Source: Clostridiales bacterium
GTDB taxonomy: Bacteria; Bacillota; Desulfotomaculia; Desulfotomaculales; VENG01
DNA: 64,000 nt
Direction of reading: 5' to 3'
Assembly (NCBI GenBank): GCA_021736985.1
Contig: JAIPEW010000006.1
Coordinates: 1 to 64,000, forward strand
In this document: positions 1 through 3,287 of the stretch, one piece after another
How the letters are laid out: each line of letters begins with the position of its first letter
How positions within the stretch are numbered: position 1 is the stretch's first letter
Made by a program: the position numbers and the translations under genes
Notes under the pieces: model-generated
What the model saw: the letters and a program-made list of their open reading frames with translations, nothing else
Database searches by the model: none
Told to the model about the DNA's origin: nothing

Positions 1-1031
1 GAATACCTACAGTGGTGGACCGAGTAGTACAACAGGCAATAGCCCATGTACTAACCCCGATATTTGAGGAACAGTTTTCGGACAACAGTTATGGATTCCG
101 TCCCGGACGAAGTGCTCATGACGCAATCAGGAAATGCCAAGACAACATAAATGAAGGATATAACTATGTTGTGGATATGGATTTGGAGAAATATTTTGAT
201 ACAGTCAACCAAAGTAAGTTGGTAGAAGTATTATCCAGGACGATAAAAGATGGACGCGTAATATCGTTAATCCATAAATACCTGAGAGCTGGAGTAGTAA
301 TAAAGCACAAGTTCGAAGAAACGGAAGTTGGAGTTCCGCAGGGCGGACCTCTAAGTCCGATTCTTAGCAATATCATGCTAAATGAACTGGATAAAGAACT
401 TGAAAGAAGAGGGCACAGGCTCGTCCGCTACGCGGACGACCTAATGATCTTCTGTAAAAGCAGGAGAAGTGCAAAACGCACATACGAAAACATACTCCCT
501 TATATCGAGAAGAAGCTATTCCTCAAAGTGAACAAAGAGAAAACAGTGGTTGAATACGTTGGTAAGGTAAAATTTCTCGGGTTTGCATTTTACCGGTACA
601 AAGGCAAAGCAAGAATCAGAATCCATCCGAAATCCGTTGCAAAGATGAGAAATAAAGTGAGAGAACTTACTTCCAGGAGCAACGGAATGGGCAATGAAGT
701 CAGAGCAAAGAAACTTAGGCGCTATATTATGGGATGGATCAACTACTTCAAGATAGCGGACATAAAGAAACTATTGTCCACTACGGATGAGTGGATGCGA
801 AGACGTATCCGCATGATTTTCTGGAAACAGTGGAAACGAGTGAAGACAAGAGTTGAAATGCTCAAATCATTTGGAGTACACAAACAGAAAGCATGGGAAT
901 ATGCAAACACAAGAAAAGGCTACCGGAGAACATCCAATAGCCCAATCCTTTCCAAATCCCTTACAAATAACGTTATTAAAGGATTTGGGTTCCTACTCTT
1001 TTCAGATTATTATCGACAAGTCACTGCGTAA
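1..1031 (+). CDS. ltrA: Group II intron reverse transcriptase/maturase, 5' end outside window
   Basis: The frame is open from the window edge (codons from base 3), so the gene begins upstream. The visible part holds the reverse transcriptase palm: FRPGRSAHDA, the first catalytic Asp in VDMDLEKYFDTVN, VPQGGPLSPILSNI, and the YADD box at about 425-442. A thumb/maturase X domain follows (MGWINYFKIAD) with a C-terminal GFLLFSDYY-type end. No HNH endonuclease domain follows the maturase domain. The family splices and retro-mobilises its host intron, and the intron's domain V/VI lies directly downstream as expected. The intron appears to sit inside the sigK element described below. Family assignment is certain; the 5' part cannot be judged. 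Confidence 0.95.
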   Translation, partial: IPTVVDRVVQQAIAHVLTPIFEEQFSDNSYGFRPGRSAHDAIRKCQDNINEGYNYVVDMDLEKYFDTVNQSKLVEVLSRTIKDGRVISLIHKYLRAGVVIKHKFEETEVGVPQGGPLSPILSNIMLNELDKELERRGHRLVRYADDLMIFCKSRRSAKRTYENILPYIEKKLFLKVNKEKTVVEYVGKVKFLGFAFYRYKGKARIRIHPKSVAKMRNKVRELTSRSNGMGNEVRAKKLRRYIMGWINYFKIADIKKLLSTTDEWMRRRIRMIFWKQWKRVKTRVEMLKSFGVHKQKAWEYANTRKGYRRTSNSPILSKSLTNNVIKGFGFLLFSDYYRQVTA

Positions 1032-1037
1032 ACTAAG

Positions 1038-1114
1038 GAACCGCCGTGTACCGAACGGTACGCACGGTGGTGTGGGAGGTCGGCTACTCAAATAATGGGT
1101 GGCCTCCTACCCGA
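1038..1114 (+). ncRNA. Group II intron domains V and VI (3' end of the ribozyme)
   Basis: Starting seven bases after the maturase stop, CCGTG-TACC-gaac-GGTA-cg-CACGG folds into the short two-part hairpin of a catalytic domain V. GGAGG at 1075-1079 then pairs with CCTCC at 1103-1107 as domain VI. The intron 3' boundary should fall just after this stem, near the CCGAT at 1110-1115. Placement behind an intron-encoded protein supports the call; the exact splice site is inferred. Confidence 0.8.
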
Positions 1115-1282
1115 TTGTAATTATAGATAGTAATTGTAAAAATAAAGTTCATACAGAACAATCCTATCTCATTGTTTGAGCAAGTTCACCAGCTAACCAA
1201 GTTCCAAATTATACTGGTTAATTAGGACATGCAAAAAGTAATATACATGTTTATATAAAGGTTTAAAAAGGCTGGTGGTTCT

Positions 1283-1429
1283 ATGAATAAAAAAAATAAT
1301 AAATTTAATATTTTAGTTAAGGTGATCTATTCGGGGGATTCAGCGCTCGACGATGCATATCAATTTTTAGCTCAAAAAATAATTAATAAGGAGAAAAAGA
1401 TATGCATGCAGCAATCTATGTCCGAGTGA
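1283..1429 (+). CDS. Small protein overlapping the recombinase start (48 aa)
   Basis: ATG at 1283 lies after AGGCTGGTGG and opens a 48-codon frame beginning MNKKNNKFNILVKVIYSG and ending in TGA at 1429. It overlaps the first 28 bases of the recombinase gene in another frame, so the two are probably translationally coupled. It has no membrane segment and I recognise no domain. Short basic proteins are often coded next to large serine recombinases and some act as directionality factors, but nothing in this sequence proves that role. The recombinase's own site (AAGGAGAAAAAG) lies inside this frame. Confidence 0.5.
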   Translation: MNKKNNKFNILVKVIYSGDSALDDAYQFLAQKIINKEKKICMQQSMSE

Positions 1430-2883
1430 GTACTGATGAACAGGTGCAGCACGGTTTTTCTCTGGCAGAACAGAAAGAAACTTGTCGTGCACGAGCAACT
1501 GCGCTTAAAGTATCTACTATAAAAGAATTTACAGATGAAGGCATTTCTGGTACAACACTGGATAGACTCGGGTTAACACAACTCAGGAAAGCAGTAAATT
1601 GCGGAGAAGTAGATACATTAATTTTACGTGATCCTGACCGGCTTTCCCGCAAACTTGCACACCAACTTCTTTTATCAGAAGAATTTGAAAAAGCCGGGGT
1701 GAAATTGGAATTTATAGACTTTGCCTGGCAGGATACTCCAGAGGGCCGTCTTTTTTATTCTATACGTGGTGCTATTGCAGAATTTGAACGTGAAAAAATA
1801 CGTGATCGTATGGTGCGCGGAAAAATGCAGAAAGCCCGCCAAGGCGGGCTTCCAATGGGGTTTTATGCTTATGGTTATACTCACAATCTAGAAAAAGGTG
1901 ATATCATTATTAATGAAGATGAAGCTGCTGTAGTAAGAAAAATTTTTAACCTTTTTATTTATAAAGATACAGGTATTAACGGTGTGGCAAAGTGGTTGAA
2001 TAAAGAAGAAGTACCTACTAAAAAAGGACGGTTTAAATGGCACCGCCAGGTAGTACGGCAAATATTACGTAATCCCGTTTATAAAGGAGAATGGCACTAT
2101 AAAGATATTATAATTCCTGTTCCTTCTATTATAGAAAATGAAACATGGTATAAAGCCAGGGAAAAACTTGATAAAGCCAGAAGGTTGTGGGCAGGTAATC
2201 CTCAAAATAAATATTTATTATCTGGTATTATAACTTGTCCGGATTGTGGTAATACAATGAATGGTATCTGTCCAAACTGGTGGGGAGAGAAAGTAAGATG
2301 CTATACTTGCCGAAAAAATTGTCAGGGAGCAAAAAATACTGGTTGTCAACCTCAAAAAATGCTTCCCGCAGAACCTATTGAAAAAGCTGTTTGGAAACAA
2401 GTTTGTTCCTGGCTACAAAATCCTGATACCATTATTGAAAAAATTATGCATATGTCTCACGAAGGTAACAGTCTCCAAAAAGAATTGCAGATGATACAAA
2501 AGCACTTGGCTGATGTTGATAAAGGGCAAGAAACAATAATGGGTGCATTATCATCCGGGCTAATTGAATTGGATGATAAAATTAAAAATAATCTGGAGCA
2601 GCTAAAAAGGCGGAAAGAGCGGCTGAAACAGCGGGAAGAAAAATTAACAAGTAATTTACAAATAATGCATAAAACAGCGGAAAAAGAGGTGTATTTGAAG
2701 AATATAACACGAGAATTATTATCCCAACTTGATACCCTTGATTTTATTGAAAAAAAGTCTCTTGTCCGCATCCTGATATCGCAGGTTGTAATATCAGGGG
2801 GAAATGTGCGAGAGGGAAAAAAATCCAACAATATTAATATTACTATCATAGCAAAACTGCCGGGTACAAAAAACATGTCATAA
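1402..2883 (+). CDS. Large serine recombinase, probable sigK-element (skin) excisionase, SpoIVCA-like
   Basis: 493 aa, the usual size for SpoIVCA-type large serine recombinases. The N-terminal resolvase domain begins AAIYVRVSTDEQ with the nucleophilic Ser at about residue 10. The DPDRLSRK and GAIAEFEREKIRDR blocks are intact. The recombinase domain (VAKWLNKEEVPTKKG...ILRNPVYKGEW) follows, then a zinc ribbon (CPDCGNTMNG...CYTCRKNC) and a long charged coiled coil at about residues 350-440. The ribosome site AAGGAGAAAAAG precedes ATG 1402. The gene ends 48 bases before the ATG of a truncated sigma-K gene, the arrangement expected of an enzyme that excises an element interrupting sigK. Catalytic role is sure; specificity for sigK is inferred from position. 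Confidence 0.93.
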   Translation: MHAAIYVRVSTDEQVQHGFSLAEQKETCRARATALKVSTIKEFTDEGISGTTLDRLGLTQLRKAVNCGEVDTLILRDPDRLSRKLAHQLLLSEEFEKAGVKLEFIDFAWQDTPEGRLFYSIRGAIAEFEREKIRDRMVRGKMQKARQGGLPMGFYAYGYTHNLEKGDIIINEDEAAVVRKIFNLFIYKDTGINGVAKWLNKEEVPTKKGRFKWHRQVVRQILRNPVYKGEWHYKDIIIPVPSIIENETWYKAREKLDKARRLWAGNPQNKYLLSGIITCPDCGNTMNGICPNWWGEKVRCYTCRKNCQGAKNTGCQPQKMLPAEPIEKAVWKQVCSWLQNPDTIIEKIMHMSHEGNSLQKELQMIQKHLADVDKGQETIMGALSSGLIELDDKIKNNLEQLKRRKERLKQREEKLTSNLQIMHKTAEKEVYLKNITRELLSQLDTLDFIEKKSLVRILISQVVISGGNVREGKKSNNINITIIAKLPGTKNMS

Positions 2884-2904
2884 TCAAACAGTATAATATA
2901 TTAA

Positions 2905-2930
2905 CTTTTGTCAGTGAAATTGAAATCTTA
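2905..2930 (+). other. Probable right attachment (recombination) site of the sigK element
   Basis: The frame of the downstream sigma-K fragment stays open upstream of its ATG. Its similarity to SigK proteins (EIEILMHLR here, ENEILMHLR in Bacillus SigK from memory) starts at about base 2916. Upstream of that the sequence is unrelated to sigma factors and adjoins the recombinase gene. The crossover should therefore lie near AGTGAAATTGAAATC. The exact core cannot be fixed without the left end of the element. Confidence 0.55.
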
Positions 2931-3287
2931 ATGCATTTACGTTCTAAAAAGAAGAACAAATCAGAATTGTCCCTATTTGATTCTATTGGAGTTGATAAAG
3001 AAGGTAATGAAATACAATTTATTGATATATTAGGTACTGATGCTGAAATAGTTACAGATAAAGTAACCAGACTGTTAGATCAGGAACAACTGTGGAAACA
3101 ATTAAAAACGCTCAGTTCTCAAGAAAAAAAGGTTTTAATAATGCGTTTTGGCTTAAAAGACGGGGTTAAAAAAACTCAAAAAGAGATTGCTAAAATGCTT
3201 GGCATTTCGCGGTCATATGTAAGCAGAATAGAAAAAAGGGCTATTTTACACCTGACTGAAAAATTTGCATCCCAATCCAGTTCATGA
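2931..3287 (+). CDS. sigK: Sporulation sigma-K, 3' half only (SpoIIIC-like fragment)
   Basis: This encodes sigma-70 region 3/4 only: SLFDSIGVDKEGNEI, then region 4 with the helix-turn-helix TQKEIAKMLGISRSYVSRIEKRA, the signature of SigK/SigE-class sporulation sigma factors. Region 2, which binds the -10 element and core polymerase, is missing, so the product alone cannot work. Similarity runs upstream of the ATG to about 2916 without a start codon, as in the 3' half of a gene split by a skin-type element. The left half should lie beyond the left edge of the window. Excision in the mother cell would rebuild the gene. A simple decayed copy is the alternative. Confidence 0.85.
   Translation: MHLRSKKKNKSELSLFDSIGVDKEGNEIQFIDILGTDAEIVTDKVTRLLDQEQLWKQLKTLSSQEKKVLIMRFGLKDGVKKTQKEIAKMLGISRSYVSRIEKRAILHLTEKFASQSSS

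Follow-up and report, generated by a model that had tools for sequence, protein, structure and literature searches.

A sigK-intervening (skin) element in a Desulfotomaculales genome and its cargo of alpha/beta SASP genes

The skin element of Bacillus subtilis (spoIVCB/spoIVCA/spoIIIC) resembles the locus described here in its large serine recombinase, the split sigK, a short core and inverted repeats around the recombination sites, which in B. subtilis comprise 5-bp repeats and a 21-bp imperfect repeat (PMC5025042). The skinCd element of Clostridioides difficile (recombinase CD1231, recombination directionality factor CD1234) also splits sigK; its serine recombinase is needed for excision, and its sites carry a 22-bp imperfect inverted repeat (PMC5025042). 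Integration in sigK has further been described for Alicyclobacillus phage MMB025 and other sigK-integrated prophages (PMC13141910). A likeness of another kind is provided by SPbeta, which undergoes excision in the mother cell and carries sspC, an alpha/beta SASP gene expressed in the forespore (PMC8270828, PMC4191935) under sigma-G control (PMC8270828). A full-text literature search over a limited collection, judged from titles and abstracts, yielded no description of SASP genes in a skin, and no description of SASP cargo was found for skinCd.

The window analysed here, 64,000 nucleotides long, is the beginning of contig C12 in a draft genome of 65 contigs and 2.84 Mb (G000). Position 1 is a contig edge, and the sequence begins within the reverse transcriptase ORF of a group II intron. 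The ORF at 1402-2883 (plus strand) encodes a large serine recombinase of the SpoIVCA/CD1231 type, 493 aa long, with Resolvase (PF00239), Recombinase (PF07508) and Zn-ribbon (PF13408) domains and an intact catalytic region MHAAIYVRVS; its product is presumed to be the excisionase/integrase of the element. It is 51–60% identical to eight skin recombinases of the group and shares invariant residues with them, R8 and S10 among others; its best phage match, at 38%, is to MMB025. The preliminary description had correctly placed a SpoIVCA-like recombinase at the 3' fragment of sigK. An ORF does begin at position 1283, where that account started, but it is a small one (1283-1429, plus strand; 48 aa, MNKKNNKFNILVKVIYSGDS...) that overlaps the start of the recombinase gene at 1402. 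Its product has no match in Pfam; homologues precede the recombinase in loci L073, L077, L078, L080, L088, L151, L155, L156, and L158, and we may guess at an accessory factor. Neither arm of the element yielded a recognisable directionality factor, and an Rfam search of the first 10 kb of the window gave no match.

The 3' half of sigK (2922-3287, plus strand; TIGR02846/PRK05803) encodes regions 3-4 and lacks a start of its own. The fragment matches the SigK model only from position 110–112 to the end (TIGR02846 110-226, E 2e-45), in agreement with the earlier view that it is limited to regions 3-4. The reported spacing of 48 bases between the recombinase stop and the fragment applies to the ORF that begins with ATG (2931-3287), and the startless, mid-gene homology noted before this ATG extends back to 2922. 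A SigK search of the whole genome located the 5' half at the end of contig C59 (SigK match C59:1658-1987; L018:2038-1674, minus strand), where its ORF runs to a stop inside the element. The same search, covering all contigs, detected no intact sigK; at E<1e-20, SigE (C44) was the sole further match over the full length. Thus, the proposal that a skin-like element splits sigK, against which an intact gene and a missing 5' half would have spoken, is borne out by the opposite pattern, a 5' half and no intact gene. Joined at a shared GA, the halves yield a single 242-codon SigK, in frame and with ENEILMHLR across the junction, which gives a gap-free alignment with SigK of G001, a genome of the same family in which the gene is intact (182/239 identical; 76%). 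The insertion point lies in the C-I-E-N-E-I stretch of the protein.

Gene order in G001 places the two contigs together. The genes at 4.3 to 31 kb of the window keep the order found on G001:C36 from 97 down to 64 kb, and the part of C59 beyond a methyltransferase gene is colinear with the same contig from 108.8 to 115 kb; hence, C12 and C59 flank one locus. The block from the methyltransferase to sigK (L018:2177-2869; window 3282 onward) is inverted relative to G001. By this synteny and by the attP palindrome described below, the halves lie at one locus, in the same orientation and with the element between them, its interior not being closed in the assembly. The in-frame, colinear SigK, the near-palindromic attP and the gene order of G001 together indicate that the halves belong together, and they support the view that C12 and C59 carry the two ends of one sigK-intervening element.

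Comparison of attL and attR suggests GA as the crossover dinucleotide (attR 2922-2923, plus strand; partner L018:1675-1674 on C59). The circle junction attP, assembled from the inner sides of C59 and C12, reads TATATTAACTTTTGTCAGTGAAATTGAAATTTCAATGTCAAAGGTTAGTATG and is a near-palindrome, self-complementary about the GA at 20/26 positions; random joins had 6.7 such positions on average, and 0/100,000 reached 20. In this arrangement TTTGTCA, the right inner arm (2907-2913, plus strand), pairs with a left-arm TGTCAAA (L018). A comparison covering more than 40 attL and more than 50 attR sites places the split at identical codons: conservation of sigK reaches through the GA at attL and starts with the GA at attR, and arms resembling TTGTCA/TTGACA lie inside the junctions, an arm type common to most of the skins compared. 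The locus described here has the same short shared core with inverted-repeat arms, which would give precise in-frame rejoining. The first of two GAAAT repeats had been considered as the attR core and was dropped after comparison with the other skins. From dozens of genomes the survey thereby defines the att core by comparison, as GA within the codons for E-N-E.

We surveyed sigK in 60 genomes, namely this one and relatives of its order. The gene is split in many of them, with gaps of 2.9–78 kb, and intact in many others. Most of the 80 named loci with related recombinases have a sigK half adjoining the recombinase. Here the recombinase gene adjoins the 3' half and has the same direction as sigK; several relatives have it next to the 5' half and oppositely oriented. 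Dozens of Desulfotomaculales-like and Bacilli genomes have skins at this codon; the element type is therefore already known, and the homologous recombinases beside sigK halves split at one codon are a fourth, independent ground for interpreting the present locus as a skin. Taking these lines together, we are highly confident that the locus is the recombinase end of a sigK-intervening element, and likewise of the proposed mechanism of its excision.

The skins of relatives are both small and large, and their cargo varies. Very small ones exist, down to 1.8 kb in the MAG Ch109 (L165:9702-11491), where the recombinase is the sole coding content. A 2.6-kb skin (L229:9808-12427) holds, apart from the recombinase, just one gene, for a YhcN/YlaJ sporulation lipoprotein, and so is a second example of cargo related to the spore. 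The skin of G002 (L071:878-9838) consists of two exact 4483-bp tandem copies with a recombinase gene in each, reflecting either a double integration or an effect of assembly. One genome, G030 (C17, C26), has a split sigK plus an intact SigK-like paralogue. In Fictibacillus nanhaiensis (L182:9926-19076), a SpoIVCA-like recombinase with no sigK halves nearby is followed by an apparent germination-receptor operon and five SASP genes.

The left arm of the element, on C59 and so out of sight for the preliminary description, contains two tandem alpha/beta SASP genes of 88 codons each, 83% identical to each other. Both match PF00269 (71.3 and 70.1 bits; cut-off 22), and in an alignment both carry the conserved halves KYEVA.E.G and TSR.NG..GG..TKRLV. 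This arm is directly contiguous with attL, so the SASP genes lie inside the element under any closure of its interior. They are the only strong SASP genes in the draft genome; the one further PF00269 match, at 22 bits (MARRKGIMSEQLKYELAEELG...), looks like the minor SspF type. Relatives mostly have 2–6 PF00269 matches per genome. G001 has a canonical SASP gene between gpr and recG, and SASP genes lie beside recG or gpr in further relatives too. In the present genome the gpr protease gene is retained, and recG and gpr are separated by a gap of 93 bp on an unbroken contig with no SASP gene between them; the counterpart of the second G001 SASP locus likewise has none. Loss of the chromosomal copy between recG and gpr is thus well supported and, given the recG- or gpr-adjacent SASP genes in other relatives, probably took place in this lineage.

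Both SASP genes are preceded by GAATT-N18-CATAATA, a sigma-G-like arrangement, a motif that recovers only 1/29 other SASP promoters of the order. No SASP gene was found in the skins of the other genomes examined, many of which were covered only in part, and no relatives of the skin SASPs were found in the viral contigs searched. A general association of skins with SASP cargo was considered and rejected, as the other skin loci examined had none and their cargo varied.

The length of the element depends on how its interior is closed. A group II intron interrupts it and breaks the assembly, both contigs ending within the intron: its 3' part occupies window positions 1-1116 (plus strand; RT/maturase ORF 3-1031, TIGR04416 E 3e-102), and its 5' part, recognised by Rfam group-II matches, forms the end of C59 (L018:567-1, minus strand). 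Judged by a full 1927-bp copy (C12:104682-106608), about 244 bp of intron are missing between the contig ends, and the simplest closure probably gives an element of ~4.8 kb (1673 + 244 + 2921). The insertion lies just past a terminator-like hairpin of the second SASP gene. The intron is present in several copies (window 1-1116; L038; L040; L039; L036; L037) whose 5' exons have terminator-like hairpins at their ends, a feature to be expected for group IIC introns. Contigs C13 (13.4 kb) and C38 (8 kb) end at exactly the same intron bases as C59 and C12, so either pairing of contigs is possible, and the two might also belong to the element, making it a skin of more than 26 kb that resembles the large prophage- or ICE-like ones. 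Skins of 38 and 78 kb do exist in the order, and C38 encodes a YopX-like protein and a Gp3-like recombination directionality factor (PF18897; L037:2589-3773). In a search of 22 genomes of the order, however, the latter turned up only here, and none was found in the 21 relatives, most of which have a split sigK. No C38 genes were found near the homologues of the C13 helicase in relatives; neither this nor the directionality-factor survey discriminates between the two pairings. The two arms read contain no phage structural, packaging or lysis genes, although C13 and C38 might belong to the element. As the simplest closure takes only 244 bp of intron and many relatives have skins of 1.8–9 kb, we regard the larger skin as doubtful.

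Two further readings concern the role of the element in its host. The SASP genes could be passengers of a recently acquired element, the SASP genes of the host itself having been missed by the assembly. The genome is indeed a draft in 65 contigs, and sspC on SPbeta-type phages shows that SASP genes can be mobile (PMC8270828); yet the recG-gpr region is complete on one contig and free of SASP genes, the second G001 locus is equally empty here, and the assembly is listed as 100% complete, which makes this reading unlikely. Alternatively, the element might be a decayed remnant whose halves are no longer joined, leaving sigK dead and the strain unable to finish sporulation. Such decay would fit the location of the halves on different contigs and the inversion of the methyltransferase-sigK block with respect to G001. 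It is nevertheless highly improbable: the recombinase gene is intact, as are the two halves of sigK and the two att sites, joining gives a perfect frame, and sigE and gpr are intact alongside other sporulation-type sigma genes.

The most satisfactory reading of the locus is a domesticated skin, retained in the germline, on which the host depends twice, for restoration of sigK in the mother cell and, less certainly, for SASPs in the spore. By analogy with B. subtilis and C. difficile, the recombinase would act in the mother cell during sporulation, synapsing attL and attR and cutting at the GA dinucleotide; the element would leave as a circle, and a precise in-frame sigK would be restored. The cell type and the timing of this excision are transferred from these two species, and no motif stood out in a sigma-E scan of the region before the recombinase. 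The forespore would retain the element, and SASPs expressed from it there would coat the forespore DNA, the only place where they are needed; both the forespore expression and the SASP function of the cargo genes are predicted. We lean modestly towards a view of the skin as a carrier, now restricted to the germline, of genes essential to the spore: every canonical alpha/beta SASP gene of the species would lie inside discarded DNA, the ancestral copy between recG and gpr would be lost, and loss of the element would cost the spore its DNA protection. To the question why many spore formers keep an element that splits sigK, cargo that comprises the host's only major spore-DNA-binding proteins would offer a direct, testable answer: the forespore, which has to retain the element, needs these proteins, and the mother cell, which gives it up, can do without them. 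If this is true, retention of a skin is selectable without invoking the timing of sigK.

Compared with the known systems, the element differs in size, layout and relation to its host. The B. subtilis skin is phage-like and 48 kb long, whereas the present element probably measures ~5 kb and includes a group II intron and SASP genes; its recombinase gene, unlike that of B. subtilis, adjoins the 3' sigK half and has the orientation of sigK. In skinCd a directionality factor gene has been demonstrated, while here only a small conserved ORF precedes the recombinase. MMB025 is an active 105-kb phage, in contrast to the absence of phage structural genes from the two arms read here. SPbeta, a complete phage, is inserted in spsM and not in sigK. 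Its sspC is an addition to the other SASP genes of its host; in the genome described here, the other canonical SASP genes are gone. Hence, what distinguishes this member of a known element type is the location of the species' only canonical SASP genes inside discarded DNA.
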